Of a stretch of DNA of 64,000 bases, positions 2,054-62,187 are shown one piece after another (position 1 is the stretch's first letter; each line of letters opens with the position of its first letter). Below the pieces are notes generated by a model. That model was not told the DNA's origin. It made no database searches and saw only the letters and a list, made by a program, of their open reading frames with translations. The DNA comes from Cyanobacteria bacterium FACHB-471 (GTDB lineage: Bacteria > Cyanobacteriota > Cyanobacteriia > Elainellales > Elainellaceae). The DNA lies in assembly GCA_014695345.1 (NCBI GenBank), contig JACJOC010000012.1:62001-126000 (forward strand), given 5' to 3'. Both the position numbers and the translations under genes were made by a program.

Positions 2054-4558
2054 ATGCATCTCTTAGATATTTCTCAAAGGCGCTTTAACCGGCTTGTAAG
2101 GCGGCTGTTTGGGAAAGCAAAGCGCTATACCGAGGCTGATCAAACTCGCCGATTTCTGTCCAAGGTTTCAAAACTCAAGTCCAAACAGATTGCAGCGATC
2201 GCTCTCCGCCCTAATCCTCTGCGGCGAAAGTCGTCTGAGCGGGGTGGCTCCCCTTCACCTGTCGCTTTGATTTTGGTGGTTGTTTCTCTCACCAGTGCAA
2301 TTGGGCATCGTTTTTATAACGAACCCAAGCTTGACGTAAACACAATTGCCCCTCAAACCATTCGAGCGCCCGAGTCGGCCAGCGTTGTAGATAGCGAAAC
2401 AACTGAAACCAAGCGGCAAGATGCTCGTACCGGAGCAGTTCCCGTTCTAATGGTTAACCAGGCAGTCAACCAAGAAATTTATCAGACATTACAGCGCTTG
2501 TTTGCTAGAGGCGATGAGTTGCGTCAGCAAGCAGGACCCCTGCCCTATATTGAAACTTCAGTATTATCTACCGGGACTCAACGCCATCTGCGACAGGCAC
2601 AAGAATGGGAATGGAGGACGATCCTGGCATCGGTGAATTCAAGAGCTCAAGCAACAGATCCTCGCACTCGTCCAGATTCGCCATCTCAACCGCCAGGTGT
2701 GCAGGCAAGTTCTTCTCAGCAGCTTGCGATCATCGAGTTACAGGCTTATCAACAAAATGCTTCAGCGGAAGATTTCTCAGCTTTGAGAGAAGTCATCGTC
2801 CGTGCTCGCCAACGCTATACCACCACGGCAGAAACACTGGAGTCTTCTCTCAAAGACGAGCAAAGCAAGTTTTATGACCCCAGTTTCTTTAACTTGACGG
2901 ATGCTGAGTGGAGCAGCACCAAAGCCGGAGTTCGCCAAGCTCTGGAACGCATTCTACTTCAAGGAATTCCGCCAGGGCTACCTGATTCGCTACTAGAAAA
3001 TGCAGTTCGGGCACAGCTTGATTTGACAATTCCAGCTGCATCAAAACCGCTGGCAAGCAAAGTTTTGATGAACGCCGTGCGCCCTAACCTGGTTCAAGAT
3101 CCGGAGCAAACCCGTTTACTTGCCGAGCGGGCAGCCGAGGCAGTTGAGCCTGAAGTTGTGGAGATTAGGCGGGGTGAGGTGATTACTCAGGCAGGTGAGC
3201 CGATCAGCCAGTCCGATTTTGTCTTGCTTGACCATTTTGGCTTGAGCCGCCGAGGAGTCAACTGGCTGGGTGTGATCGGCTTTGGCGGTTTGGTGGCGGG
3301 TGGGATAACTATTTTTCTGTTGGTTGAGCGGCGGTTTCATCCAGGCTTGCGACGACGCGATCACTTCCTGGTGGTTTTGCTGACGCTGACGACTCCCCTG
3401 CTCATCGCGCTGGGCGTTCCGGCAACCAATTTGCCTGCGTTAGGACTGCTGATCGGCAGTTTCTACGGTTCTGCTTTGGGCATTACGGTAGTGGGTTTAT
3501 TAAGCATCGCCCTGCCAATTGGCATGGAGATTTCCTGGGTCACGCTGACTGCCTGTGCGATCGGTAGTATTTTGGGTGCGGGCATGGCAGGGCGACTGCG
3601 ATCGCGCGAAGAGCTGGCGCTATTGGGTGGCGGAGTAGGTTTAGCCCAAGGGATTATTTACCTGCTGCTGAGCCTGATTTTGACGACGCCTGCTAACCCC
3701 GTTTGGTATGCAGTTTTAACCCAATCGGTGCTGCAAGGGTTGATGGGGCTTGCTTGGAGCATTGTCGCACTGGGTATCAGTCCTTATCTAGAACAACTTT
3801 TTGACCTGGTTACCCCGATTCGTCTTGCCGAATTGTCCAATCCCAATCGCCCGTTGTTGAAAAAGTTAGCTTCTGATGCTCCGGGCACATTTCAGCACAC
3901 CCTATTTGTCGCAACCCTGGCTGAAGCTGCGGCCCGTGCATTGGGCTGTAACGTAGAACTGGTGAGAGCGGGAACGCTCTACCACGATGTTGGCAAAATG
4001 CATGATGCGCTGGGCTTTATTGAGAATCAGATGGGCGGGCCGAATAAGCACGACCTGATCGATGACCCCTGGAAGAGCGCAACCATTATCAAAAAGCACG
4101 TCAGTGAAGGGGTCGTAATGGCGCGAAAATATCGCTTGCCCAAGGCAATTCAAGCCTTTATCCCGGAACATCAGGGCAGTATGCTAATCACTTATTTCTA
4201 CTATCAAGCGCAACAGCGAGCGAAAGAAAACCCCGACCTGGTGATTAACGAAGCCGATTTCCGCTATGACGGACCCATTCCTCAGTCTCGCGAAACGGGG
4301 ATTGTGATGCTGGCAGATTCATGCGAGGCGGCACTGCGATCGCTCAAAGATGCTAGCCGCGATGAAGCTTTAGCAATGGTTAACCGCATTCTACGGGCCC
4401 GCTGGCAAGATAACCAGATGGTGGATTGTGGGTTAACCCGAGCAGACATGACTAAAATTGCCGAAATTTTTGTGCGCGTCTGGCAACAGTTCAACCACCA
4501 GCGCATCCCCTACCCCAAAGCAGCCTTCGGTACACAGCCTGCTCCTGCTGCGAAGTAA
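2054..4558 (+). CDS. 7TM-HD domain phosphodiesterase (PgpH-type, probable c-di-AMP hydrolase)
   Basis: 834 residues. Order: short basic cytoplasmic N-terminus; one membrane segment near residues 70-85; a large extracytoplasmic region (about 90-400) typical of 7TMR-HDED; a bundle of about seven hydrophobic helices (about 400-590); and a cytoplasmic HD domain (about 600-790). The HD motif is AGTLYHDVGKMHDALGFIEN near residue 640, with downstream EHQGS and MLADSCEAALRSL, as in PgpH proteins. Family knowledge: PgpH hydrolyses c-di-AMP to pApA; in cyanobacteria this nucleotide is linked to osmotic, potassium and night-time physiology. That this protein does so is inferred from architecture. It is near full family length with no lesions. 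The gene is followed convergently by an ADP-ribosylglycohydrolase. Confidence 0.9.
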   Translation: MHLLDISQRRFNRLVRRLFGKAKRYTEADQTRRFLSKVSKLKSKQIAAIALRPNPLRRKSSERGGSPSPVALILVVVSLTSAIGHRFYNEPKLDVNTIAPQTIRAPESASVVDSETTETKRQDARTGAVPVLMVNQAVNQEIYQTLQRLFARGDELRQQAGPLPYIETSVLSTGTQRHLRQAQEWEWRTILASVNSRAQATDPRTRPDSPSQPPGVQASSSQQLAIIELQAYQQNASAEDFSALREVIVRARQRYTTTAETLESSLKDEQSKFYDPSFFNLTDAEWSSTKAGVRQALERILLQGIPPGLPDSLLENAVRAQLDLTIPAASKPLASKVLMNAVRPNLVQDPEQTRLLAERAAEAVEPEVVEIRRGEVITQAGEPISQSDFVLLDHFGLSRRGVNWLGVIGFGGLVAGGITIFLLVERRFHPGLRRRDHFLVVLLTLTTPLLIALGVPATNLPALGLLIGSFYGSALGITVVGLLSIALPIGMEISWVTLTACAIGSILGAGMAGRLRSREELALLGGGVGLAQGIIYLLLSLILTTPANPVWYAVLTQSVLQGLMGLAWSIVALGISPYLEQLFDLVTPIRLAELSNPNRPLLKKLASDAPGTFQHTLFVATLAEAAARALGCNVELVRAGTLYHDVGKMHDALGFIENQMGGPNKHDLIDDPWKSATIIKKHVSEGVVMARKYRLPKAIQAFIPEHQGSMLITYFYYQAQQRAKENPDLVINEADFRYDGPIPQSRETGIVMLADSCEAALRSLKDASRDEALAMVNRILRARWQDNQMVDCGLTRADMTKIAEIFVRVWQQFNHQRIPYPKAAFGTQPAPAAK

Positions 4559-4590
4559 GCAGCAAACGCCAAGCAAATATCAAGCAAACA

Positions 4591-5523
4591 TCAGGCGTTA
4601 GTGACCTGTTCAAATCGAGTTGCTAAATCTTCAATTGCTGCTTTTCGAGCAATCTGATTTATCCACTCCACAGGAATGTTGTCTAACCCATAGTAGATTC
4701 CGGCTAGACCTCCTGTGACAGCAGCAGTTGTATCGGTATCGTCGCCCAAATTAACTGCTTTCAACACCGCTTCAGCATAAGAATGGGTGTTGAGTAAACA
4801 CCAGAGCGCAGCTTCTAACGTATGAATCACATAGCCACTCGATTGAATCGCATCAACAGGTAGGCTAGCGATCGCCCCATTCGTGATCCGTTCAAAGTGC
4901 GGCAGTTCCAAACTGTAGGGTGATTTCTGATAAATTTGCTGAACTCGTTCCCACCCCTGCCGATAGGCCGTTTCCAGGTCAGACCCTTGCAGCAGATCAA
5001 TGGCAACACTGATGTAAATGCCACACGCGATCTGAGAACGAGGATGAGCATGGGTAATGCTGGCAACTTGATGGACGCGATCGATTAACTCTGGGAAGTC
5101 TAGCCGCTTGTGCCAGTACGCCATCGGCAAAATTCGCATTAGAGAACCGTTGCCATTGCTGCGATCGCTGCTCTCACCCGACTCCAAAGGAGAAATGCCG
5201 CGCTGTAATTTGGCGATCGCCACTTGAGTCGTGTTTCCCACATCAAATGTTTCACCATGTGCCGTCCAGTACGCTTCACTGTACCAGCAGCAAAATTTTT
5301 CAGCGATATCCTTCGGCGAATATCCGCTACAGAGGCTTTCTGCCAAACAAAAGGTTAGCGAACTGTCATCAGACCAGGTACCGGGCGGTTGGTTCCAGGT
5401 GCCATAGCCCTGCATTCCTGCAACTGGAGCTATTGTCCGTTGAGCCCGACTTGTAAACTCGACTGGAACGCCCAGCGCATCTCCAACACACAAACCCACA
5501 AACCCAGATAAACAGCTAGACAT
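4591..5523 (-). CDS. ADP-ribosylglycohydrolase family protein
   Basis: 310 residues, a complete DraG-fold protein. The N-terminal GFVGLCVGDALGVPVEF, the metal-binding GTWSDDSSLTFCLAESL near residue 50, GNGSLMRILPMAYW, and GDDTDTTAAVTGGLAG near residue 262 supply the acidic ligands of the two-metal site. The family removes ADP-ribose from proteins or small molecules; the substrate here cannot be told from sequence. It is the intact paralogue of the degenerate gene at 538-1656, with the c-di-AMP phosphodiesterase gene between them. It converges on that gene with 32 bp between stops. Start ATG at 5523. Confidence 0.9.
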   Translation of the reverse strand: MSSCLSGFVGLCVGDALGVPVEFTSRAQRTIAPVAGMQGYGTWNQPPGTWSDDSSLTFCLAESLCSGYSPKDIAEKFCCWYSEAYWTAHGETFDVGNTTQVAIAKLQRGISPLESGESSDRSNGNGSLMRILPMAYWHKRLDFPELIDRVHQVASITHAHPRSQIACGIYISVAIDLLQGSDLETAYRQGWERVQQIYQKSPYSLELPHFERITNGAIASLPVDAIQSSGYVIHTLEAALWCLLNTHSYAEAVLKAVNLGDDTDTTAAVTGGLAGIYYGLDNIPVEWINQIARKAAIEDLATRFEQVTNA

Positions 5524-5809
5524 AGTTTTTATTGAGGACTCTGAATGTTCCCTCTAGGCTATTGCGAACGCAATCAAAGATCATCAACAGCCAGAAGCCA
5601 GGCATGAGGAAGACAAGAAATGGAATGATGAGAAAGAATGCTTCCGGTCGAGTAGAAGCAAATTAAACTGCAAAACTGCTGCTGCTCACTAGATCTGAAA
5701 CATTCACAGGAATCTTCACAAAATAAATTAACCCAGCCCTTAGAAGATATCCTTCCAAGAACTGGGTTTATAACATTGCACTATCTTGCGCTTGCAGTCT
5801 GAATCAGTG

Positions 5810-6178
5810 CTACTTAACGGGCTCGCGAACTACCCCATCGGGCATGGTTGCCCCCTCTAGAGATGCGTCCTTGAGATTAGACTGCTCCAGTTTAACTCCG
5901 GTCAAATTTGCGCCTGTGAAATTTGTCCCGGTCAAATTTGCACCTGTGAGGTTTGCACCTGACAAGTTCGCACCTGTGAGGTTTGTATTCCACAAGTTAG
6001 CGTTACGCAAATCTGCTCCGCTAAGACAGGAATAGCTCAGGTTGACTTGAGTCAAATCTGCTTCACTAAAGTTAACACGCCTTAGATTTACACTTCTTAG
6101 TTTCGCTGCAATCAAATTGATGCCGCTAAAGTTTCTCTGTCCGGCAGCATACCGGCTCAGAAGTTCAGGAGTTTTCAT
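5810..6178 (-). CDS. Pentapeptide repeat protein
   Basis: 122 residues made almost entirely of A(D/N)LXX pentapeptides from about residue 25 to 110 (for example GADLRNANLWNTNLTGANLS), which fold as a right-handed quadrilateral beta-helix. There is no signal peptide or other domain. The DNA repeats accordingly, with motifs such as GTCAAATTTG and CACCTGTGAGGTTTG recurring at about 5895-5990. Function is unknown; the family includes topoisomerase-protecting and thylakoid-lumen members, but nothing here points to either. The start lies 12 nt after the stop of rbp on the same strand, so the two are probably cotranscribed. Confidence 0.85.
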   Translation of the reverse strand: MKTPELLSRYAAGQRNFSGINLIAAKLRSVNLRRVNFSEADLTQVNLSYSCLSGADLRNANLWNTNLTGANLSGANLTGANLTGTNFTGANLTGVKLEQSNLKDASLEGATMPDGVVREPVK

Positions 6179-6190
6179 GGTTTATTTCTT

Positions 6191-6490
6191 CTAGTAGCGA
6201 CGACGGTTATTATTGCCCCAACCGCCGCCACCCGAAGAGCCTCTATCTTCGCGAGGTTTTGCTTTGTTAACTCTCAAATCACGCCCCATCCACTCGGCTC
6301 CATCCAATGCTTCGATGGCTGCTGCCTCTTCTGCATCTGTCCCCATTTCAACAAAACCAAAGCCTCTCATACGACCCGTTTCCCGGTCAGTTGGTAACTG
6401 AACTCGCTTAACCGTACCGTATTCAGCAAAAACGGTGTTGACATCAGCTTCGGTGACTTCGTAGGACAGATTACCTACATAGATTGACAT
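6191..6490 (-). CDS. rbp: RRM-type RNA-binding protein
   Basis: 99 residues. One RNA recognition motif covers residues 2-80 with RNP2 (IYVGNLSY) and RNP1 (RGFGFVEM), then a short Gly/Arg-rich tail (GSSGGGGWGNNNRRRY). This is the glycine-tailed, cold-inducible class of cyanobacterial Rbp proteins. They bind RNA and help adapt to low temperature or localise mRNA; the family role is known, the role of this copy is inferred. A gene for a pentapeptide-repeat protein follows after 12 nt. An AT-rich leader lies upstream, as is usual for rbp genes controlled at the 5' UTR. Confidence 0.93.
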   Translation of the reverse strand: MSIYVGNLSYEVTEADVNTVFAEYGTVKRVQLPTDRETGRMRGFGFVEMGTDAEEAAAIEALDGAEWMGRDLRVNKAKPREDRGSSGGGGWGNNNRRRY

Positions 6491-6938
6491 AAGCTACTCC
6501 GGTTAGAAAAATATCTGAGATCCAAATTTCGGATAGCCGTCTGCCGATGATATACAAACTAAACTTACACCGAATTAAAGCCTCACATTTACTATATCCT
6601 GAATCTTTGCTGGAGCAAGCGTTTTTTACCGCTCGTTCAAATTTTGTAGGTTAGGAAGGTTAGGAAAGAGAGAATGTAGACCAATTGTAATGATTGAAAT
6701 TCAGTTTCTACAGCCATCTGGCTTTAATCATCAGGCTTCTTAAGAGATGATTTTAAAACTGAGAGTGTTTATATTTAAACATTTACATTCGGTCAAGCAG
6801 ATTTGATTTGCGATCGCTCAAACCCTTCTCTGAAGCAAGATCGAACAGGATTTCTATAACTTAATGAAGGTTAAGATTCAATTGTTCAGATAACTTAACG
6901 ACCAATTCACAATTTTAGAGATAAGGTTAAGTTAACTG
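6491..6938. promoter_or_regulatory. Divergent AT-rich region upstream of rbp and a small gene
   Basis: About 450 bp of AT-rich DNA between the divergent rbp and the small plus-strand gene. It should hold the rbp promoter and 5' leader and, on the other side, the small gene's promoter. A 9-bp perfect inverted repeat (TAACTTAAC at 6891-6899, GTTAAGTTA at 6926-6934) and a further GGTTAAG at about 6868 lie just before the plus-strand gene; they could be a regulator site or a leader hairpin. Confidence 0.4.
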
Positions 6939-7004
6939 ATGGGGAAGACAAACCCATATTTTATAAATTTTGGCAGTTCGTTTTTGAAACCAGAGGATAA
7001 AGAC

Positions 7005-7190
7005 ATGTTGAGCACAGATACATATAACTTTGAAGTTCAGCCCGGGACTCGTAATCACAAAGGATATTTTGTTCAAGAAACTGCTTACAAGCTAGTTGGA
7101 ATTGATCAGGCGGGTTGGGCACTGATTTGTCTTGACAACACGACTTGCCACTATGTTGATCCTGATAGTCTTCAGGAGTTACTAGGTTAA
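7005..7190 (+). CDS. Small conserved-type hypothetical protein
   Basis: From the ATG at 7005 the frame encodes 61 residues, with a good AGAGGATAA ribosome site about 5 nt upstream. An in-frame ATG at 6939 would add 22 residues but has no clear ribosome site and lies at the edge of the inverted repeat. The protein is soluble-looking and acidic with no signal peptide (begins MLSTDTYNFEV, ends HYVDPDSLQELLG). The GYFVQETAYKLVGIDQAGWA segment suggests a small beta-rich fold. I do not recognise a family. A terminator-like hairpin follows at 7256-7294, which supports it being an independently transcribed gene. Confidence 0.6.
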   Translation: MLSTDTYNFEVQPGTRNHKGYFVQETAYKLVGIDQAGWALICLDNTTCHYVDPDSLQELLG

Positions 7191-7255
7191 AATGTCGTGT
7201 AGCGGGGAACACAATTTCCTTTGGTTTGAGGACTGACGTTGCAGATTGTGAACGA

Positions 7256-7294
7256 AAATTGGGGCGTAGGGGCGTAGTTCCCGCGCCCCAATTT
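7256..7294 (+). terminator. Hairpin terminator after small gene
   Basis: 11-bp perfect stem (AAATTGGGGCG at 7256-7266, CGCCCCAATTT at 7284-7294) with a 17-nt loop, followed by a T-rich stretch (GTTTCTTTTG). It sits between the small gene and the radical SAM gene. Confidence 0.65.
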
Positions 7295-7400
7295 GTTTCT
7301 TTTGATGGTTCTTACAATCGCCAATTTCACAAATTATTTAGCCCTGCTATATGCTGGGAAAATATTCTGGGTCAATATTCATAGTGTGAGGCACGACTTA

Positions 7401-8990
7401 ATGCGGGTTTTACTGCTTTATCCCCTTTTCCCAAAGTCATTCTGGTCTTTTGATAAAGCTTTGGAGCTGGTTGGTCGTAAGGTTTCTCTCCCTCCATTGA
7501 GCCTAACTACGGTCGCTGCGATCTTGCCTCAAACCTGGGAGTTTCGTCTAGCTGACCGCAACGTCCGACTAGAGAGCGAAGCTGACTGGTATTGGGCAGA
7601 TTTAGTCATCATTTCAGGCATGATTGTGCAGAAGCCTGACATGCTGCACCTGATTAGCGAAGCAAAACGGCGCGGCAAGCGGGTTGCTGTTGGTGGTCCT
7701 TACGTTACCTCTGTGCCCGAAGCGGCGCAAGAAGCGGGCGCAGATTTCTTGGTGTTAGACGAAGGCGAAATCACCCTGCCGATGCTGGTGGAAGCGCTGG
7801 AGCGAGGAGAAACTTCAGGCGTATTCCGTGCTAATGGGGAGAAACCTGATGTCACGACGACCCCTGTTCCCCGATTTGACTTACTGGATTTGCGGGCATA
7901 CAACGATATGTCAGTTCAGTTTTCGCGGGGTTGTCCGTTTCAATGTGAGTTTTGCGACATTATCGTACTGTACGGTCGTAAGCCTCGAACGAAGGCTCCT
8001 GCTCAACTTTTGGCAGAGTTGCAGGCGCTGTATGACTTAGGCTGGCGGCGATCGATTTTTATCGTAGATGACAACTTCATTGGCAATAAGCGCAATGTGA
8101 AGCTGCTACTGCGAGAACTAGCGCCTTGGATGAAGGAACACGGTTATCCATTCCGCCTGACTACAGAGGCTTCTGTAGATTTGGCTCAAGATCAGGAATT
8201 ATTGGATTTAATGATTGCAGCTAATTTTACAGCTGTGTTTTTAGGCATCGAAACCCCCGATACAGAAAGCCTTTCTTTAACTCAAAAGTTTCAAAATACG
8301 CGCAACTCGTTAATAGAATCTGTGCAAAAGATTAACGAAGTAGGTCTGCGAGTCATGGCGGGTTTCATCATCGGGTTTGATGATGAGAAGCCAGGAGCAG
8401 GCGATCGCATCGTTGAATTTGTTGAAGCGACCGCAATTCCACAAGCGCTCTTTAGTATGCTTCAGGCCTTGCCCAACACGGCTCTGTGGCATCGACTTGA
8501 AAAAGAAGGGCGATTGCTTGATGGCGACGATGAAGCTAACATTCACCAGACGACATTAACCAACTTTATTCCGACTCGCCCCCTAGAAGAAATTGCACGG
8601 GAATATGTCCGTTGTTTCTGGGATTTGTATGAGCCTAGCCGCTATTTAGCGCGAGTTCATCGTCACTTTCTGGCTATGAAACCAAACCCTAATAAGAAGA
8701 AGTTTAAAGTGCCAGAATTTTCTGACATTCGGGCGCTTTTTACCATTTGTTGGCGGCAAGGGATCAAGCGAGATACACGCTTTCAGTTTTGGCGGCAGCT
8801 TTTCTCAATCATTCGGCACAACCCAGGTGTGTTTGAAACCTATCTAGTTAATTGTGCTTTGAATGAACATTTTGCTGAATATCGTCAAATTGTGCGAAAT
8901 GAAATTGAAGCGCAGTTGACGGAGTATCTAGCAGCGAAAGCAGAGTCCAATTTGAAAACTGCCGAACTGCAAGAACCCGCCGTTCTGTAG
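7401..8990 (+). CDS. B12-binding radical SAM protein (HpnP-like, DUF4070 type)
   Basis: About 529 residues from the ATG at 7401. Residues 1-150 form a cobalamin-binding Rossmann domain (MRVLLLYPLFP, then VAVGGPYVTSVP). The radical SAM cluster is SRGCPFQCEFCDI near residue 177 (CX3CX2C), then a TIM-barrel region with FIVDDNFIGNKRN and GIETPD, and a DUF4070-like C-terminal part. The closest family I know is the hopanoid C-2 methylase HpnP and its many cyanobacterial relatives; sequence alone does not prove hopanoid methylation. No hopanoid genes (shc, hpn) are in the window. The frame extends upstream to 7293, but that stretch overlaps the hairpin and is not typical of the family. Confidence 0.85.
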   Translation: MRVLLLYPLFPKSFWSFDKALELVGRKVSLPPLSLTTVAAILPQTWEFRLADRNVRLESEADWYWADLVIISGMIVQKPDMLHLISEAKRRGKRVAVGGPYVTSVPEAAQEAGADFLVLDEGEITLPMLVEALERGETSGVFRANGEKPDVTTTPVPRFDLLDLRAYNDMSVQFSRGCPFQCEFCDIIVLYGRKPRTKAPAQLLAELQALYDLGWRRSIFIVDDNFIGNKRNVKLLLRELAPWMKEHGYPFRLTTEASVDLAQDQELLDLMIAANFTAVFLGIETPDTESLSLTQKFQNTRNSLIESVQKINEVGLRVMAGFIIGFDDEKPGAGDRIVEFVEATAIPQALFSMLQALPNTALWHRLEKEGRLLDGDDEANIHQTTLTNFIPTRPLEEIAREYVRCFWDLYEPSRYLARVHRHFLAMKPNPNKKKFKVPEFSDIRALFTICWRQGIKRDTRFQFWRQLFSIIRHNPGVFETYLVNCALNEHFAEYRQIVRNEIEAQLTEYLAAKAESNLKTAELQEPAVL

Positions 8991-9023
8991 TATAGGCGCT
9001 TTTATAGTGCTAGTCGCTTAAGT

Positions 9024-9074
9024 TAGAACAAAGAAGGGAGGCAGGGTGAAGACCTGCCTCCCTTCTTTGTTCTA
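9024..9074. terminator. 22-bp perfect stem, bidirectional terminator
   Basis: Perfect 22-bp arms at 9024-9045 and 9053-9074 with a 7-nt loop, between the convergent radical SAM gene and the Uma2 pseudogene. The arms begin TAGAACAAAGAAGG. The A-rich 5' side and T-rich 3' side suit termination in both directions. Confidence 0.8.
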
Positions 9075-9188
9075 GCCTGTATGACTATAGCGATACCTTA
9101 ACGCCCCAACTCACTCATACCTGTGGAAGACCATGCTACACGGAGCTTCTAGACAAAAAAAGTTTTGATTACAATAGGTAGTGTCGTA

Positions 9189-9928
9189 TTAACTCAGTCG
9201 TTCAGGATCAATCCCTAGCTCTCGTAGCTTTGCTGCTAACGCCTCAGCACGTTGACGTTCTTGCTCAGTCTGTTCTGAACTCCACAAAAGCAGATTTCCA
9301 GACGCATCCCACCAGCGCAACCAGTTGATTGTATGTCCTAACCGTTCTCCTCTCCAAATTCCTAGCCACAGGTCTAACTCAGGAATATGAATTCGCCCTT
9401 CCAAGTTGACGGGTTGCAGCACATAGCGCCCTGCTTGAAGACAGCGCACCTCTAGTTCGGGTTCATAAGGATCGTAAGTAACATAGGTCGGAACTTGTAA
9501 GATGTGTTCGTAAAAGTAAAGCTTGCCGTAGGGTGGCGTAGAGCGAACCGACAGTTCACCACCATCTTCTTCGGATAAAAACTCCATCACAACTGCCACG
9601 CGATCGCCTTCTCGATTTGGGGTATAGCTTAGCTGCGGCGAATTACCCCCTCAGCTACAGGATTTACACGGGGCACGTAGAGCCAATCAGGGGCTTTAAC
9701 AACAATTTTTTTATTAACAGTGGCAACTAGCCCAAAATTGGAGACGATCAGCATTTCAGGCAAAACTCGCTGGTTTGCTCCTAATGCATCCGTGAGAGCA
9801 GCAGCAAGGAGCGGTTGTTGAACATTTTCTACCGGGTCATCAGGTAGTTTGTAGCCGGCAGGCAAAACGTTCCAGTTAACAGTTGGGGCTGACTGAGCGG
9901 ATGGGTGATGTGAAGTGTGTAAAACCAT
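9189..9928 (-). pseudogene. Uma2 (DUF820) family putative endonuclease, frameshifted by a 5-bp duplication
   Basis: Two minus-strand frames together make one Uma2-family protein. Frame 1 (start 9928) carries the N-terminal part, LPDDPVENVQQPLLAAALTD to KAPDWLYVPRVNP, and stops just after GVIRRS. Frame 2 (down to 9189) carries VAVVMEFLSEEDGGELS, KLYFYEHILQVPTYVTYDPY and a C-terminal coiled coil. Between them TAGCT is duplicated in tandem (plus strand 9625-9629 and 9630-9634). Removing one copy turns 740 nt into 735 nt, exactly 245 codons with stop, the usual size of the family. Uma2 proteins have a PD-(D/E)XK nuclease-like fold and are highly multicopy in cyanobacteria; their role is unclear. 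The lesion may be decay, a reversible slip, or a sequencing error. Confidence 0.85.
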
Positions 9929-10027
9929 CAGATTCCCTCAATCTGTAAGTCATTACAAAGTCATTACAAAAGACGATTCAGGAATAAATAGAACTAGTAC
10001 ACTTGTTTCCGCATCAAGTATATCAAT

Positions 10028-10468
10028 CTAACTACCTGCTTCTTGAAGCTGGGTAGCGATGCGTTCGCCAAACTCCGGATCGGTATTTGCTAACCCTAGA
10101 AGCTGGAGGTATTCTTGCCAGGTTAAGCCTGTGGAAGCGATCGCCTCAAACGCTTCTGCCTCAATCTCTTGCTGAACTTGTAGTGATTCAGATTCGGTTT
10201 CTGCACTTTGGAGCTCACCTTCTCGTTGCTCAACCAACTTGATCACCTGTACATAAGCTTGAACAAACTGGCTCACCTTTTCTGAAGAAATATCATTAAC
10301 GTCTGGGCTGGAGCGGTTAGGCGTTGTTTCCTCCAAAGTAGGAGTCGTCTCCTGGTTGGTGTTTGGTTGTGCAGCCCAACTTACTGGAGCAATAGCCAAC
10401 AGTCCCCATGCCCAAGCTGACACCACCAAAACAATCCGTTTTAACCAAATCCAGAGAGTTGAACACAT
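10028..10468 (-). CDS. DUF4168 domain secreted protein
   Basis: 146 residues. The N-terminus has a signal peptide (basic WLKR, hydrophobic IVLVVSAWAWGLLAIA, cleavage likely after SWA). A Thr/Pro/Asn-rich spacer follows, and then a DUF4168 region from about residue 60: EKVSQFVQAYVQVIKLVEQRE, a polar heptad-like stretch, then GLTWQEYLQLLGLANTDPE. Such proteins are exported helical proteins of unknown function, common in cyanobacteria. It stands alone, divergent from the pedR-like regulator, with no operon partner. Confidence 0.85.
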   Translation of the reverse strand: MCSTLWIWLKRIVLVVSAWAWGLLAIAPVSWAAQPNTNQETTPTLEETTPNRSSPDVNDISSEKVSQFVQAYVQVIKLVEQREGELQSAETESESLQVQQEIEAEAFEAIASTGLTWQEYLQLLGLANTDPEFGERIATQLQEAGS

Positions 10469-10659
10469 CGATATTCTGAGCTGTTGATTTTGAGATGTTG
10501 TAAATTCAATTCTTTTATCGTCTGAAACCCGTTTGGGCAGGATTCTCCACCGGGCAACATTTCAAAAGTTGAACAGGATTTTGAGATAAAAGCGGTTTTT
10601 GCAGTGAAGCCCTTAGAATTGAGGGAGGCGATGAGTAAATATACACGGTGAGAAGCATT

Positions 10660-10932
10660 ATGGCGGGCGGCGATCAGACCTCTGGGACACTCTCAGATCG
10701 AGAATTGCAAATCCTGGAACTGGTGGCTGGTGGCTTGACCAACCAGGAGATTGCAGAAAAGTTAGAAATTAGCAAGCGCACTGTTGACAACCATATCAGC
10801 AATATCCTGACCAAAACTTCAACCGGCAATCGAGTTGCTCTGGTCAGGTGGGCCTTGCAGTGGGGGAAAGTTTGTATTGATGAAGTTAACTGCTGTACTT
10901 TGCCCATTTCTAGTGATGAAATTATTTCTTAA
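10660..10932 (+). CDS. pedR: PedR-like LuxR-type transcription regulator
   Basis: About 90 residues consisting of one LuxR-type helix-turn-helix (SDRELQILELVAGGLTNQEI, then SKRTVDNHISNILTKT) and a short tail VRWALQWGKVCIDEVNCCTL. There is no receiver domain. The size and Cys-containing tail match PedR (Ssl0564 type), a cyanobacterial DNA-binding regulator reported to respond to photosynthetic electron transport through thioredoxin; tail cysteines are conserved here (VCIDEVNCC). The symbol is assigned by resemblance. The ATG at 10660 is preferred; a GTG at 10648 is also in frame. A small conserved gene and hisS follow on the same strand. Confidence 0.8.
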   Translation: MAGGDQTSGTLSDRELQILELVAGGLTNQEIAEKLEISKRTVDNHISNILTKTSTGNRVALVRWALQWGKVCIDEVNCCTLPISSDEIIS

Positions 10933-10950
10933 TGAGTGCGTTTAGCTGAG

Positions 10951-11268
10951 ATGATGAATCAACCGATCGCCCAAACTGGTGCCCAAACTGGAGATGTAGA
11001 GCAGCCTTACCAAATCCAATGTGATCGGTTGCCGTTGGCAATCTATCGCGAAGTAGTAGCCCATTTACGTCAAGTTGCGGGGGTCGAGGCGGGGCTGTTG
11101 CCTCAGACATCTCAAAAGTTTGACTATTTACAGAGTCAGGTGGGTGGGCTGTGGATTCAATATACGGCAGCGGCTGAACAGGCTTCGCATCTACGGGTGG
11201 AGCAGATTTTGGCGTACTATGGCGATCGCTACGGCAACTGGGAAGTGGTTAAACCGACTGAGAAGTAA
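10951..11268 (+). CDS. Conserved cyanobacterial hypothetical protein upstream of hisS
   Basis: 105 residues from the ATG at 10951 (a GTG at 10936 is also in frame). It is soluble, with the core CDRLPLAIYREVVAHLRQV, FDYLQSQVGGLWIQY and EQILAYYGDRYGNW. This looks like a small helical protein I associate with cyanobacterial hisS neighbourhoods, but I know of no function. It begins 18 nt after the pedR-like stop and ends 15 nt before hisS, so the three may share a transcript. Its stop codon lies in a 12-bp tandem duplication (TGAGAAGTAAT at 11259 and 11271) whose second copy reaches the hisS start region. Confidence 0.75.
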   Translation: MMNQPIAQTGAQTGDVEQPYQIQCDRLPLAIYREVVAHLRQVAGVEAGLLPQTSQKFDYLQSQVGGLWIQYTAAAEQASHLRVEQILAYYGDRYGNWEVVKPTEK

Positions 11269-11283
11269 TCTGAGAAGTAATTC

Positions 11284-12567
11284 ATGGGCGCGATTCAGGC
11301 TTTGAGAGGAACCCGCGATATTTTGCCAGAGGAGGTCAGCTACTGGCAGCGGGTAGAGACGGCTGCAAGAGATATTCTGGGCAGGTCGGCTTATCGAGAA
11401 ATTCGGACTCCTATTTTTGAGCAGACTGACCTGTTCGAGCGAGGCATTGGTGAAGCAACCGATGTCGTAGGCAAGGAGATGTACACCTTCAAGGATCGGG
11501 GCGATCGCTCCCTTACCCTGCGTCCTGAAAATACTGCTGGCGTAATTCGCGCCTTTATTGAGCATCACCTCCACGCTCAGGGTGGGGTGATGCGGCTCTG
11601 GTATACCGGACCCATGTTTCGCTACGAGCGTCCCCAAGCGGGGCGGCAGCGGCAATTTCACCAGTTAGGCGCTGAGTTGGTCGGCAGTCCCGATCCGCGT
11701 GCTGATGCAGAAGTCATTGCGATCGCCACCGACCTACTGCAATCGCTGGGCTTAAAGGCACTGCGAATGGACTTGAATTCAGTAGGAACTATCGCTGATC
11801 GGCAAACCTACCGAGAAGCGCTGGTTGCTTACTTCACGCCTCACCAAGCGGAACTAGATGCTGACTCTCAGGATCGGCTGACTCGCAATCCGCTACGAAT
11901 TCTGGATAGCAAAGATGAGCGGACAAAAGCAATCGCTCAAGACGCACCGAGCATTTTGGACTATCTCAGCCCTGATTCTCAAAAGCACTTTGACCGAGTA
12001 CGGCAGCTTTTGGAAGATTTAGGCATTTCCTATCAGCTAAATCCTCGTCTAGTGCGAGGGCTAGACTACTACACACACACTGCATTTGAGATTATTTCTG
12101 ATGACCTGGGTGCCCAGTCCACCGTTTGTGGTGGCGGTCGCTATGACGGTCTGGTTGCAGAATTAGGCGGACCAGAGACTCCCGCTGTGGGTTGGGCAAT
12201 CGGTCTGGAGCGGCTAATTTTGCTGCTACAACAGCAATCCCTTGCAGCAGCAGCCGTTGATTTTTACCTCGTGTCGCGGGGCGATCGCGCTGAGGCCCAA
12301 GCCTTAAAACTTGCCCAAACCCTCCGTCAGCTTGGATTTGCTGCCGAACTCGATCTCAGCGGCAGTGCCTTTGGCAAACAGTTCAAGCGGGCAGATCGCA
12401 GTGGTGCAGTCGCTTGCCTGATCCTAGGTGATGCCGAAGCAGACAGCGAAACGGTTCAGATCAAGTGGTTGAAATCAGGAGAACAGGAGGCAATCGCCCA
12501 ATCTGATCTACTAGACAAAGCCGATGACCTACGCCGCCGAATTACAGATTTCAGAGAGGGCGCATAG
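11284..12567 (+). CDS. hisS: Histidyl-tRNA synthetase
   Basis: 427 residues, the usual length. It is a class II synthetase that charges tRNA-His with histidine. Motif 1 region ALRGTRDILPEE, motif 2 region MRLWYTGPMFRYERPQ, the histidine-specific LVRGLDYYTHTAFEI, and motif 3 GWAIGLERL are all present, followed by a C-terminal anticodon-binding domain (VDFYLVSRGDRAEAQALKLA onwards). Start ATG at 11284, 15 nt after the preceding gene. A palindromic repeat block follows the stop. Confidence 0.97.
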   Translation: MGAIQALRGTRDILPEEVSYWQRVETAARDILGRSAYREIRTPIFEQTDLFERGIGEATDVVGKEMYTFKDRGDRSLTLRPENTAGVIRAFIEHHLHAQGGVMRLWYTGPMFRYERPQAGRQRQFHQLGAELVGSPDPRADAEVIAIATDLLQSLGLKALRMDLNSVGTIADRQTYREALVAYFTPHQAELDADSQDRLTRNPLRILDSKDERTKAIAQDAPSILDYLSPDSQKHFDRVRQLLEDLGISYQLNPRLVRGLDYYTHTAFEIISDDLGAQSTVCGGGRYDGLVAELGGPETPAVGWAIGLERLILLLQQQSLAAAAVDFYLVSRGDRAEAQALKLAQTLRQLGFAAELDLSGSAFGKQFKRADRSGAVACLILGDAEADSETVQIKWLKSGEQEAIAQSDLLDKADDLRRRITDFREGA

Positions 12568-12573
12568 AACGTG

Positions 12574-12813
12574 TAGGGGCGCAGCATTCGGGCAACAAAA
12601 GCGTTAGAGGCAAAGACTTGAATCCGAATGCTACGCCCGGTTCGGATTCAACCCCAGTTCGAGTTCAGTTCAAGGGTATGCCAAATCCGACATGACGTTT
12701 GGATGAAAATCAAGGGTGAATCACAAATGGTTTGTCATGTCGAACTGGGCGTGGCATTCGGACGAAAATCATCGGTATATCGCGAGAAGGGTTTGCCGAA
12801 TGCCGCGCCCCTA
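12574..12813. repeat. Nested palindromic repeat element (family B, two hairpins in inverted arrangement)
   Basis: The ends at 12574-12591 and 12796-12813 are inverted copies (TAGGGGCGCAGCATTCGG on the left). Inside are two separate hairpins with 15-bp arms, 12577-12638 and 12747-12810, each GGGCG..GCATTCGG to CCGAATGC..CGCCC with one mismatch. Between them a further inverted pair, CCAGTTCGA with TCGAACTGG, encloses ACATGAC/GTCATGT. A related single hairpin lies at 49702-49765. It resembles a MITE- or REP-like element and also fills the gap between convergent hisS and radA. It has no coding capacity. Confidence 0.75.
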
Positions 12814-12815
12814 CG

Positions 12816-14360
12816 TCATCCTTCCTCATTCCCCCCTTTCATCAACGCGACTCCGATCGCATCCACAACTCTTGCCACTGGAATGATTTCTAAACCAGAG
12901 TCAGAATTGGCTTGAGTATGAGGCACGATCGCCCGCTTAAATCCTAATTTGGCGGCTTCTTTGAGCCGTAGCTCCATTTGTGAGACGGGACGCACCTGTC
13001 CACCTAAGCCAACTTCGCCGATCAGCACCGTACCCGGATCAACGATGCGATCGCGGAAACTGGCAGCAACAGCGATCGCCACCCCCAAATCCGCTGCGGG
13101 TTCTCCTACACTCAGTCCCCCCGATGAAGCAACATAGGCATCCAGCTTAGACAGCGGAATTCCCACCCGCTTTTCTAGCACTGCCAGGATTTGCAGCAGA
13201 CGGTTGTACTCAATTCCCGTTGTGGAACGGCGCGGGGAAGCGTAGCTAGTTGGACTGACCAATGCCTGCAACTCCACGACTAAGGGACGGGTACCTTCAC
13301 AAGCGACGATTGTGGCTGTTCCTGAAGAGGCTTCATCCCGGTTACCCAAAAATAGCTCTGAGGGATTTGTCACCTCTTCTAAACCGCGATCGACCATTTC
13401 AAACACGCCTAGCTCATGGGTTGCACCAAAGCGGTTTTTCACCGATCGCAGCAAACGATGACTGGCAAAGCGATCGCCTTCAAAGTACAGCACCGTATCG
13501 ACCAAGTGTTCCAACACTTTAGGACCAGCGATCGCCCCTTCCTTCGTCACGTGCCCCACAATAAACAGCGTGATATGCTCCCGTTTGGCAAGCTGCATCA
13601 GCGCCGATGTACATTCCCGCACCTGAGAGACTGAACCGGGAGCCGAATTGAGGGTGGCAAAGTAGAGCGCCTGAATACTGTCGATAATCGCCACCTGCGG
13701 TCGCAACGATTCTAGTTCCAGCAAAACTGTTTCTAAATCCGTTTCCGGCAACAGATAAAGATTGGACTCTGAGGGCGCAATTACAGCAGCTCCAGTTGCT
13801 CCATTCCTATCGCCTGCATCCTCTGCCACAGCTTGTCGAATATTTGGGGGCTTACGAGAACTTCCATTTACATCTCCCTCTTTGCCCTTCTCTGCTCCAC
13901 ACAAACGCTGCCAACGCAGTTTTACCTGCTGCCCCGACTCTTCTGCACAGACATAAAGCATTCGGTATTGCGCCGATAGCCGATTGGTCACTTGCAGCAG
14001 CAGCGTTGATTTGCCGATACCCGGATCACCCCCAATCAGCACCAGGGAACCTGGAACAATGCCGCCGCCTAAGACCCGGTCTAACTCCGTATAGCCAGAG
14101 GACAATCGCGATTGAGGATAGTCGGAAATCTGCGGTAAAGTCAGCGACACAATTGCTTGAGGCGCAGTTGACTCACCCGAGCGCCTAGATTTTGTGCTGG
14201 TTTTAGCGGCGATCGCCCCCACCCTTGAAGAACTTGCACTAGCAGGTACAACCTGCTCTACCATTGAGTTCCAACTGCTACAAAAGGGACACTTACCAAA
14301 ATATTGAGGAGACTCTGCTCCACATTCGTTACAAACGTATTGCGATCGCGACTTTGCCAT
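12816..14360 (-). CDS. radA: DNA repair protein RadA
   Basis: 514 residues. A C4 zinc finger (C10, C13, C24, C27 in YVCNECGAESPQYFGKCPFC) is followed by a RecA-like ATPase with Walker A GGDPGIGKSTLLLQ near residue 110, the RadA motif KNRFG, and a Lon-like C-terminal domain. RadA is a branch-migration ATPase that helps process recombination intermediates. A Gly/Lys-rich insert follows CAEESGQQVKLRWQRLCG, which makes the protein longer than the E. coli form of about 460; such an insert is tolerated in the family. The stop codon lies right at the edge of the palindromic element at 12574-12813. Confidence 0.96.
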   Translation of the reverse strand: MAKSRSQYVCNECGAESPQYFGKCPFCSSWNSMVEQVVPASASSSRVGAIAAKTSTKSRRSGESTAPQAIVSLTLPQISDYPQSRLSSGYTELDRVLGGGIVPGSLVLIGGDPGIGKSTLLLQVTNRLSAQYRMLYVCAEESGQQVKLRWQRLCGAEKGKEGDVNGSSRKPPNIRQAVAEDAGDRNGATGAAVIAPSESNLYLLPETDLETVLLELESLRPQVAIIDSIQALYFATLNSAPGSVSQVRECTSALMQLAKREHITLFIVGHVTKEGAIAGPKVLEHLVDTVLYFEGDRFASHRLLRSVKNRFGATHELGVFEMVDRGLEEVTNPSELFLGNRDEASSGTATIVACEGTRPLVVELQALVSPTSYASPRRSTTGIEYNRLLQILAVLEKRVGIPLSKLDAYVASSGGLSVGEPAADLGVAIAVAASFRDRIVDPGTVLIGEVGLGGQVRPVSQMELRLKEAAKLGFKRAIVPHTQANSDSGLEIIPVARVVDAIGVALMKGGNEEG

Positions 14361-26824: not shown

Positions 26825-26934
26825 AATCTAGAAACTTAGCCTGAGTCCAAAACCTCATCCTCCTAGACGAATGCGGCTTGGATTTAGGCACTGTAGTCTA
26901 CTGTAGTCTACTGCTGCTTCATGGTAAAAAGTTG

Positions 26935-53156: not shown

Positions 53157-54278
53157 ATGCATCTAAAACTAACCGAGTCCCGACTACCCTTTGCATCACT
53201 TCTGCTGATTGCCCCCTTCTTCCTTTGGGGCACTGCAATGGTGGCGATGAAAGGGGTGATGCCTCACACAACTCCGCTGTTTTTGGCAGGCATTCGGCTA
53301 GTGCCCGCAGGCGTGTTAATTCTGATTGTTGCTGCACTCATGGGCAGGTCCCAACCCAAAGGTTGGCTTGCCTGGCTCTGGATCGGCTTATTTGGGCTTG
53401 TAGATGCGACCTTATTTCAGGGTTTTCTGGCAGAAGGGTTAGCTAGAACCGGGGCTGGTTTGGGTTCAGTCATGATTGACTCACAGCCACTCGCAGTCGC
53501 GGTGATGGCACGGTTTTTGTTTGCGGAACAGGTGGGACTGTGGGGTTGGCTGGGGTTGGCGTTTGGTGTATTTGGAATTAGTCTGCTGGGCTTACCGGAT
53601 GCCTGGATTTTGGCTTTTTTACACGGTGAGGTATCTGTCAGCGGGCAAATCGGGGTAGAGGCAGTGCAGCGGCTTTTTCAGAGTGGCGAATGGCTGATGC
53701 TGCTGGCAGCACTATCGATGGCGGCAGGTACGGTAATGGTGCGGTTTGTTTGCCGCTATGTCGATCCGGTTGTGGCAACGGGCTGGCACATGATCTTGGG
53801 GGGAATGCCCTTGTTTGCACTCTCTGCAACGGCAGAGGCGCAGCAGTGGGTACAGCTTCAACTTCCTGACTGGATGGCTTTGAGCTATTCAACGATTTTT
53901 GGCAGTGCGATCGCCTACGGCTTGTTTTTCTACTTTGCTTCTAGCGGCAACTTGACCAGCCTCAGTTCATTGACCTTTCTCACGCCTGTCTTTGCGCTAC
54001 TGTTTGGCAATCTATTTCTAGCGGAGGTGCTTAGCCCAATTCAATGGATTGGGGTCGGCTTTACCCTGGTCAGTATCTATTTGATCAATCAGCGGGAGAA
54101 TTTGGCTGAGAGGCTTCAAGGTTTGATGCAGCGGCAGAGGGAGCGATCGCTCACATATCAGGCAGCAAGTAGCACTGAAGGCAAATCTGCCTTTTCAAAT
54201 TCGCTACCTTTACCGAACAGTGATCCTACTGAGGTATCATCGGTAAACATAGGGATGCGTGACTCAGAATCAGAATAG
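53157..54278 (+). CDS. EamA/DMT superfamily transporter
   Basis: 373 residues. Ten hydrophobic helices in two EamA repeats; the first begins APFFLWGTAMVAMKGVMPHT, the second includes AAGTVMVRFVCRYVDP and ends FLTPVFALLFGNLFLAEVLS. A polar C-terminal tail of about 65 residues follows. The substrate is unknown; the family exports metabolites such as amino acids. Start ATG at 53157. The gene is divergent from sppA and monocistronic by position. Confidence 0.9.
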   Translation: MHLKLTESRLPFASLLLIAPFFLWGTAMVAMKGVMPHTTPLFLAGIRLVPAGVLILIVAALMGRSQPKGWLAWLWIGLFGLVDATLFQGFLAEGLARTGAGLGSVMIDSQPLAVAVMARFLFAEQVGLWGWLGLAFGVFGISLLGLPDAWILAFLHGEVSVSGQIGVEAVQRLFQSGEWLMLLAALSMAAGTVMVRFVCRYVDPVVATGWHMILGGMPLFALSATAEAQQWVQLQLPDWMALSYSTIFGSAIAYGLFFYFASSGNLTSLSSLTFLTPVFALLFGNLFLAEVLSPIQWIGVGFTLVSIYLINQRENLAERLQGLMQRQRERSLTYQAASSTEGKSAFSNSLPLPNSDPTEVSSVNIGMRDSESE

Positions 54279-54777: not shown

Positions 54778-56220
54778 ATGTCCTATCGTTTAAGTTTATT
54801 GTTAGTTACCTGCCTTACGGGCCTTGGTGTAATCCCCGTCTTACCTCTGGGATTGCGAGTCGATGCAGCTGTAACGCTTCAAGAAATCACAAACTCCACG
54901 GATGCTTTTGCTCCGGGTCAACGGTCTGGCACTAACGCTTTCATGATGGAGCTAGCCCAGTCCGAGTCTTCGCCTTCTCCATCTGCTACGCCAGAATTAC
55001 CGAATCTCTTGCCTGGTAGCCAGGGGCAAGCTGTGACTCAACTGCAAACCATTTTGCAGGAGCTAGGTCACTACACCGCAGCAGTTGATGGAAAGTATGG
55101 AGACAGCACCGCTGAGGCAGTCTCCAAATTTCAGCAAGCAGCAGGTCTAACGGCAGATGGTCGAGTTAACACTGAAACTTGGGAAAAACTGATAGCAGCC
55201 CAAGCAACAGAGGCAATAGAAGCAACAAATACTTCAACCGATGCTTCAGGAGCTACAGAATCAACCGCCGAAACTGAATCTGCTGAGGCAACCAATGCAT
55301 CCAGCAGTGGTCTAACCTGGTGGATCTTGAGCTTTTTGGTAGTCCTGGGGGTTGCAGGTGGACTGTTTTACTTCCTACGGATGGAAAAGCTTGATGCAAA
55401 GCGTCCTAGTTCCTCATTAAAAGGTGGATTAGCTGACCAGTCGCCGACGCTGGAAACCCCCACCCGCCCCTATTTCCCAAATGGCAGCAGCAAGCGTGAT
55501 TTGGTTCGTTCTGAGGTAGTTTCTGGGCACATGGAAGATGCTTCAGATATGGAGGGGACTTCTCGACTCTCCAAGATAGACATCGTTCAGGAGCTAGTCA
55601 GAGATTTGCACAGCCCTGACCCCAGTAAGCGACGCAAAGCAATTTGGGAATTGGGACAGCGGGGAGATTCGCAATCGCTTCAGCCGCTAGTGGATATGAT
55701 GATTGATGCGGATTCCAGCCAACGAAACTTGATCTTGGCGGCTATCTCAGAAATTGGCGTGCGATCGCTCAAACCCGTTAACCGTGCCCTGCTGATATCG
55801 CTACAAGACAATAGCCCTGACGTTCGTAAAAACGCGATTCGAGATTTGACCCGGATCTACGATCAGGTCGCGCAAGTCAGTCATCTGCTGCGCCATGCGG
55901 CTGAAGATGGCGACGACGAGGTGCGGGAAACAGCCCGTTGGGCCTTGGGTCAGCTTAATCGCATTAAGACTTTGACCGACTCTTTGCCAGAGTCAGGGGC
56001 AAATTCAACGGCTCTCCCGAATTCTGTGAAACAAGAGCAACTGCCGCAAGATTCCTCGACTAGCTCCGATCGCCATACAGAGGAATCCGATTCGCCTAGC
56101 TCAAATTATTACTCAGAAAATTCTGGCTCGAATTACTACTCAGAGGATGCTCCCGTTTCAGGGACAAGCGATTCGAACTCAAATTCGAACTCAAATTCAA
56201 CTAACGAAACTTTCTGGTAG
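54778..56220 (+). CDS. Peptidoglycan-binding / transmembrane / HEAT-repeat protein
   Basis: About 480 residues from the ATG at 54778 (a TTG at 54724 is in frame but adds a polar stretch before the signal). Order: signal-like helix (LSLLLVTCLTGLGVIPVL), a PG_binding_1 domain (PGSQGQAVTQLQTILQELGH; FQQAAGLTADGRVNTETW), an Ala/Thr/Ser linker, a membrane helix (WWILSFLVVLGVAGGLFYFL), and a cytoplasmic HEAT/PBS-type repeat region (SPDPSKRRKAIWELGQRGDS, SPDVRKNAIRDL, DDEVRETARWALGQL), then a Ser/Asn tail. It would join the wall to a cytoplasmic protein-binding surface. I know of no named function. The tail DNA has short repeats (AACTCAAATTCG). Confidence 0.85.
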   Translation: MSYRLSLLLVTCLTGLGVIPVLPLGLRVDAAVTLQEITNSTDAFAPGQRSGTNAFMMELAQSESSPSPSATPELPNLLPGSQGQAVTQLQTILQELGHYTAAVDGKYGDSTAEAVSKFQQAAGLTADGRVNTETWEKLIAAQATEAIEATNTSTDASGATESTAETESAEATNASSSGLTWWILSFLVVLGVAGGLFYFLRMEKLDAKRPSSSLKGGLADQSPTLETPTRPYFPNGSSKRDLVRSEVVSGHMEDASDMEGTSRLSKIDIVQELVRDLHSPDPSKRRKAIWELGQRGDSQSLQPLVDMMIDADSSQRNLILAAISEIGVRSLKPVNRALLISLQDNSPDVRKNAIRDLTRIYDQVAQVSHLLRHAAEDGDDEVRETARWALGQLNRIKTLTDSLPESGANSTALPNSVKQEQLPQDSSTSSDRHTEESDSPSSNYYSENSGSNYYSEDAPVSGTSDSNSNSNSNSTNETFW

Positions 56221-60948: not shown

Positions 60949-61722
60949 TCAAAAAATTCTATCTTGATCCATCTGTTCGCTTAGCCAAGCCCGAATGGTT
61001 TGGTGCACTTCTCCAGCAACCTCATCTAATCCATGACCTGCGTTGGGGTAAAGCACCAGCCGTTTAGGTTCAAATGCCCTGTTGTAGACGTAGCGTGAGC
61101 AGAGTGACGACAAAACGGAATCGTGTGTACCATGCAGCAGCAATAGCGAGCAGTGGCTTGCCAATGCTGAAACAGAATCTGTGCCGTAGGATTGTGTTGC
61201 TAGAGTCACCACCGTGCGAACCACCTCTGCTTGAGCTGCTGCCTGAATCACAACCGCACCGCCAAAAGAATGACCAATCAGGGCGATCGCCTCAATTCCT
61301 TCATTCTCTAGATAATTGATGCCCGCTAACACGTCTAGAACGGACTCTTGCAGGTGCGTGGAGTTGCGAAACTGAAGGCGTAGTGCAGCAATGCCGTCAC
61401 TCATTAAATCCTGACAAAGCCGAGGATAAAGCCCTTGCGCGGGGGTATCCCAATTTCCACCAATTCCACCAACCCAAATCGCAGCTTGTTTAGTTGCTTC
61501 TATTCGGTAATACTGGCAATGAACAACTCCTTGGGGTGTTGCCAGTTCAATTGGATAGTAGCTGTGCTGACGGGGTTCGCCCCCAAAATCTTGAAACATC
61601 GTTCTGAAAGGCTTACTGTTGCTAGATAGCACACGCTTTCTCCTATCTTGTATAGATTCAGTTTCAACGTGGCGGGGATAAATATCCTCTACCTGAAGCC
61701 CAAGATAGGTCTGCAATTCCAT
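60949..61722 (-). CDS. Alpha/beta hydrolase family protein
   Basis: 257 residues. The nucleophile elbow is IALIGHSFGGAVVIQ (Ser), the acid is LLLHGTHDSVL (Asp), and the base is YPNAGHGLDEV (His). An N-terminal extension of about 60 residues (MELQTYLGLQVEDIYPRHVE) precedes the fold. No signal peptide. The substrate is unknown. Its stop lies 6 bp from the serA stop on the opposite strand. Confidence 0.9.
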   Translation of the reverse strand: MELQTYLGLQVEDIYPRHVETESIQDRRKRVLSSNSKPFRTMFQDFGGEPRQHSYYPIELATPQGVVHCQYYRIEATKQAAIWVGGIGGNWDTPAQGLYPRLCQDLMSDGIAALRLQFRNSTHLQESVLDVLAGINYLENEGIEAIALIGHSFGGAVVIQAAAQAEVVRTVVTLATQSYGTDSVSALASHCSLLLLHGTHDSVLSSLCSRYVYNRAFEPKRLVLYPNAGHGLDEVAGEVHQTIRAWLSEQMDQDRIF

Positions 61723-62187
61723 TAAGATGAAAAGTTACCTCAAACACGGTTAGGCAGTAGAAACAGTTACTTATTAAATACTTATTAAATAGGTGAACAG
61801 GGACAGACATTCTCATCAAAAACGTAGCATCCGTTCATGTCCAAGCTGTTCTCTAAGTTAATGACATCCTGGCTGCTAGAACTCACGGTAACATCTGGAG
61901 TTGCCCTCTGGTTTTGACTACTGCTGCGACTGTTGGGATGGGTAGCACAGATTCGGGTTAAATTCATTACTCTGCCATCTTCGGTTCATATGTAGCAAAA
62001 GAAAGTATCGTTCAAGTTAGATTCGCTCAACAGCGGAGAGATCGATGGAAAAATAAGAGTGTCGCCAGCAGCAATCTAGGTAAGAGGGCGATCGCCAACC
62101 ATAAGAAAGTAACCGTCAAAACACCTGTCAAACTCAAAAACTTCAGCATAGGATTACTTCGATACAATTGGAGAACTCACTTGCAAC
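61723..62187. other. Sparse region with a small candidate frame
   Basis: Beyond the small minus-strand frame at 61785-61967, no gene was seen. The sequence is AT-rich with HIP1 words. 61988-62187 shows no coding frame or repeat I can support. Confidence 0.35.
61785..61967 (-). CDS. Small Cys-containing peptide candidate
   Basis: 60 residues from ATG 61967 to the stop at 61785. The N-terminal half is Ser/Asn/Gln-rich (NSRSSSQNQRATPDVTVSSS), and the end is distinct: ENSLDMNGCYVFDENVCPCS. There are four Cys in all, three near the end. The layout (disordered front, compact Cys-rich end) recalls a small secreted or modified peptide, but it has no hydrophobic leader and no neighbouring modification genes. 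The ribosome site is poor. It may be a chance frame. Confidence 0.3.
   Translation of the reverse strand: MNLTRICATHPNSRSSSQNQRATPDVTVSSSSQDVINLENSLDMNGCYVFDENVCPCSPI

Follow-up and report, generated by a model that had tools for sequence, protein, structure and literature searches.

A Uma2-family gene interrupted by an exact 5-bp tandem duplication: probable recent loss of one copy of a large cyanobacterial family

When the two halves of one protein are encoded in different reading frames on either side of a short tandem repeat, has the gene been lost, can it be switched on and off, or has an intact gene been misread? This question is raised by a Uma2-family gene in the 64,000-nucleotide stretch of DNA analysed here (the window), which comes from Cyanobacteria bacterium FACHB-471. 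A sequence-only reading had described the gene as broken by a recent 5-bp duplication that might act as a reversible switch.

The duplication and the reading frame of homologues

The following features define the gene and its lesion:

9189-9928, minus strand: Uma2-family (PF05685) gene, frameshifted, assigned by orthologue alignment and by a Pfam match in the C-terminal frame
9629-9928, minus strand: N-terminal half, 99 amino acids followed by TAA, carrying the equivalent of D81 (numbering of the intact relative L091)
9189-9626, minus strand: C-terminal half in the other frame, carrying the equivalents of E114 and K134 (L091 numbering)
9625-9634, no strand: two copies of TAGCT, the 5-bp tandem duplication that shifts the frame, located in the conserved RRSYTP motif

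The two TAGCT copies (9625-9629 and 9630-9634) are exact and the match extends by 0 bases on either side. On the coding strand, the TAA ending the N-terminal open reading frame is a product of the junction between the copies and stands directly after residue 99. The C-terminal frame, which has its stop at 9189, is open back to 9626 at least, and its first listed start is a GTG at 9599 (136 amino acids), 29 bases past the stop codon of the N-terminal half. Removal of one copy leaves 735 of the 740 bases, which with the stop counted corresponds to the 245 codons claimed from the sequence alone. That the TAGCT repeat is remarkable in itself was ruled out, as exact period-5 tandem repeats occur in the 64-kb window at chance level (60 versus 52.8 +/- 6.2 in 20 dinucleotide shuffles), and the gene contains another of them at 9346-9355 (TCTCC). 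The lesion was judged real because of a comparison of the frame across the junction in relatives and not because of the repeat.

For this comparison, 60 related genomes were searched, of which 53 matched the C-terminal half and 35 the N-terminal half, 30 loci being taken from the matches listed for each half; from a scan of named genomes for homologues the best 80 of 351 were kept, and further stretches were retrieved. Among the resulting 204 loci, 155 matched at least one half and 149 matched both, in every case with the halves side by side, and six loci matching a single half were left out of the junction count. Defined by the 120 bases round the junction, the 149 loci represent 110 distinct places, namely the window, three paralogues from the same genome, and a further 106. 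The 109 places other than the window are thus the best-ranked homologues from other species together with paralogues, and some of them are too closely related to count as independent, with a 45-base stretch in common to 16 pairs.

The distance across the junction is 32 bases in the window alone, whereas it is 27 in 77 of the other places, 24 in 18, 21 in 13, and 30 in one. The relatives' distances are all multiples of three, and the Uma2 gene of the window carries a true 5-base insertion relative to its homologues, so the described break of the gene by an exact tandem duplication of 5 bp, with its halves in different frames, holds. In all 109 other places the frame is free of stops up to 40 codons from the junction, and neither a two-copy TAGCT unit nor any exact repeat of period 5 occurs in the 24 bases there. 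Orthologues with the same split, which would have spoken against a lesion, were looked for in these 109 places and 0 were found, and a split common to orthologues was ruled out on this count. Stops elsewhere in the gene were seen in two of the 109 homologues, 78 codons (L035) and 52 codons (L070) past the junction.

Family membership and the residues separated by the lesion

The C-terminal frame (window 9189-9638) matches Pfam Uma2 (PF05685) with 28.2 bits at a cut-off of 27, and the N-terminal half searched alone against Pfam matches no family. Intact relatives score 36.7 (L095), 34.5 (the orthologue in the same-genus genome G001) and 24.9 (L091, which is below the cut-off of 27). Fold comparison was carried out with the modelled structure of L091, an intact relative (mean pLDDT 77.6, pTM 0.70). 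The structures most similar to this model were 9y1l (Z 10.4, rmsd 3.5, 136 aligned), 6okh (Z 10.2, rmsd 3.1, 140 aligned), 1wdj (Z 9.3, rmsd 4.8, 148 aligned), 3ot2, which is titled DUF820 (Z 8.9, rmsd 4.0, 148 aligned), and 3ijm (Z 8.2, rmsd 3.4, 122 aligned), followed by 3s1s with Z 5.8. Foldseek returned E-values of 2.9e-03 (1wdj) and 5.0e-03 (3ot2), the query-length TM-scores being just 0.34-0.35, and a profile built from the relatives found no match when searched against the sequences of solved structures. From its model, L091 is predicted to adopt the restriction-endonuclease-like fold of Uma2/DUF820. Uma2 is described as a PD-(D/E)XK nuclease family with structure 1wdj (PMC1913061).

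Residues D81, E114 and K134 (L091 numbering) show no variation in 28 of 28 aligned relatives and are present in the halves of the window gene, and they may be the active-site residues of a PD-(D/E)XK-type nuclease. The lesion lies after the invariant D81 and before the invariant E114 and K134. The gene resembles Uma2/DUF820/COG4636 (PF05685; 1wdj, 3ot2) in the sequence family of its C-terminal frame, in the modelled fold of L091 and in being multicopy in a cyanobacterium. It differs in that this copy is frameshifted and in that its subfamily has a helical tail of QERQRAE type at the C-terminus, beyond the Uma2 domain match. One unit of the tail is found in the window:

9243-9263, minus strand: single 7-amino-acid unit (QERQRAE type), from translations and alignment, with coordinates derived by hand from the frame

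Counted by eye, the number of these 7-amino-acid repeats in the tail varies, with 1 in the window, 2 in G003, 3 in G019, 5 in G001, and 6 in G006.

State of the locus in related genomes and age of the lesion

In G001, gene order is collinear with the window and comprises a radical SAM protein with a B12-binding domain, Uma2, DUF4168, a presumed LuxR-type regulator, a small open reading frame and a protein that we take to be HisS, the names LuxR-type and HisS having been assigned from the sequences and not by family search. Uma2 at the same locus of G001 is open, with 272 codons and a single TAGCT copy. In G002, of the same genus, the radical-SAM and DUF4168 neighbours lie on one contig about 270 bases apart with no Uma2 between them, and protein matches in the 9-kb stretch of this genome are at chance level only. 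Since Uma2 is intact in G001, broken in the window and absent in G002 at one place in one genus, it is an accessory gene here. G002 has either lost Uma2 already or never had it, and its absence from the same place points to ordinary gain and loss. The Uma2-free intergenic stretch of G002 (L204:6428-6568) contains 16-nt inverted repeats that are 109 nt apart and 94% complementary, possibly a small mobile element. In the stretches round close homologues in G003, G006 and G019 the neighbours differ from those of the window, the sole likeness being a radical-SAM match of 24% identity in G003; for G019 the contig has a length of just 6550 bases.

The genome of the window, an assembly in 118 contigs, contains 46 Uma2 matches, and the loss of one copy is to be expected because there are so many. 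Three of the 46 have in-frame stops, several others are partial, some of them near contig ends, and a copy on contig C103 (G000, L177:1105-1686) is split between two frames. Uma2 copy number is also stated to differ between related strains (PMC9403480).

In order to estimate the age of the lesion, lineage-specific codon changes were polarised with G003, G019 and G006 as outgroups, excluding ambiguous sites (in the N-terminal half 2 nonsynonymous and 6 synonymous ones, in the C-terminal half 10, all synonymous). In the N-terminal half 9 nonsynonymous and 14 synonymous changes are specific to the window and 2 and 8 are specific to G001 (p 0.43). The corresponding numbers for the C-terminal half are 5 and 24 for the window and 5 and 19 for G001. 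Overall, nonsynonymous and synonymous changes number 14:38 in the window and 7:27 in G001 (Fisher p 0.61), against about 2.5:1 for random mutation. Had selection been absent over 20% of the window branch, the chance of finding no more than 14 nonsynonymous changes among 52 would be 0.02. Because the changes in both halves are mostly synonymous, with no difference from the G001 side, the lesion is young relative to the split from G001, in agreement with the recent origin that had been proposed. The N-terminal half of the window has a change at the near-invariant position 25, and its excess of amino-acid changes, which is not significant and rests on small numbers, might reflect a slightly older decay.

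Probable loss of function and its alternatives

On the whole, one member of a large and dispensable Uma2 family has very probably suffered a recent loss of function by tandem duplication. The exact 5-bp duplication, which would have arisen by replication slippage or a similar templated event, shifts the frame and creates a stop directly after residue 99, where translation would end. Both halves would be inactive as nucleases, since the conserved acidic residues and lysine of the PD-(D/E)XK-type fold would no longer be on one polypeptide, and this Uma2 copy would be on its way to being lost. A frame-breaking lesion is found opposite an intact same-locus orthologue with little further decay, as in a recent pseudogene, and likeness to ordinary recent pseudogenes formed by small tandem duplications extends to the single lesion, the conserved halves and the dispensable paralogous family; no differing feature was found.

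Slippage is probably the origin of the duplication, since the window exceeds G001 in length at two nearby tandem repeats as well, with units of 11 and 12 bp. Two features flank the gene:

9947-9970, no strand: exact tandem repeat with an 11-bp unit in 2.2 copies, 18 bases upstream of the Uma2 start codon
9022-9076, no strand: hairpin (24-bp stem, 7-base loop; -46.2 kcal/mol, z -9.08) lying between the radical-SAM and Uma2 genes, which converge, and likely a shared terminator-type structure

The upstream repeat at 9947-9970 is 12 bases shorter in G001, and a repeat with a 12-bp unit at 11258-11281 is 12 bases longer than in G001 and is longer than in G002 too, from which it follows that tandem-duplication mutation occurs here. 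Within 4000-14000 there are 22 exact tandem repeats with periods of 5-20, of which 15 are comparable with G001 and three are longer in the window; a 1-base alignment difference from G001 at 6926-6935 (period 5) was not counted. Exact repeats with periods of 9-12 are in excess over the whole window (8 versus about 0.2 in shuffles), being located at 6648-6666, 9947-9970, 11258-11281, 26890-26913, 53541-53560, 56171-56198, 61455-61472 and 61768-61791. Their comparison with G001 is confined to 4000-14000, where 6648-6666 aligned in part only.

An error of sequencing or assembly, with one TAGCT copy and an intact Uma2 gene in the real genome, is unlikely. Conserved halves are equally what such an error would leave, and the 118 contigs of the assembly also count in its favour. 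However, five neighbouring open reading frames (radical SAM, DUF4168, LuxR-type, 10936-11268 and HisS) are open and align over nearly their full length with G001, and an exact 5-base duplication is unlike the usual homopolymer-type sequencing error.

The proposal that the gene is phase-variable, slippage between one and two TAGCT copies turning a Uma2 nuclease on and off, found no support in the comparison and is very unlikely. It draws on a repeat unit whose length is not divisible by three within a gene that is conserved in other respects, on the recent date of the lesion, and on low-copy promoter repeats in another bacterium (about 54-57 bp, 1-3 copies), which are reported to vary within isogenic populations (PMC12817950). 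The same text treats those promoter repeats as phase-variable and mentions homopolymer slippage in its introduction, and no case of phase variation by a two-copy 5-bp unit was found in the literature searched, the available part of that study (PMC12817950) included. Against switching stand the presence of just two copies of a short unit, the chance level of two-copy period-5 repeats, the finding of a broken state or two-copy unit at the junction in none of the 109 other places, and the absence of Uma2 from the same place in G002. Simple-sequence contingency loci, which vary by slipped-strand mispairing, are similar in having a tandem repeat within a reading frame and a copy number that alters the frame. 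In such loci the tract is longer than chance and has several units, whereas here there are two units at the chance level given above; and a repeat tract or alternate states would be expected in relatives, whereas the 109 best-ranked matches have none. There is likewise no sign here of both states in the species or of recurrent switching, with one genome compared per species. That slippage would control an on/off nuclease directed at self or phage in part of the population, with the upstream 11-bp repeat perhaps tuning its expression, is hardly credible. If the two-copy state were reversible, the Uma2 nuclease would be a contingency gene in a cyanobacterium.

It is also highly improbable that the gene still works, with its halves produced as two proteins after reinitiation at GTG 9599 or fused by programmed frameshifting. 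This GTG lies close behind the stop codon, a GAGAAGG 7 bases before it resembles by eye a ribosome-binding site, and most changes are synonymous. Reinitiation could occur, but the resulting protein would be without the first part of the core. Against two functional products, none of the 109 other homologous places is split at the junction, D81 would be on one chain and E114/K134 on another, and inspection by eye revealed no slippery sequence at the junction. Least probable of all is that TAGCT was duplicated as the target site of a transposon that came and went, leaving the gene broken regardless: some transposon families make 5-bp target duplications and such a footprint is indistinguishable from slippage by sequence alone, but no remnant bases lie between the copies, excision in bacteria more often restores one copy, and the longer 11- and 12-bp repeats nearby suggest a common duplication process.

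Loss of this one copy has little significance alone. With intact, broken and absent states at one locus in one genus, this Uma2 gene provides a clean example of turnover in a very large cyanobacterial family.
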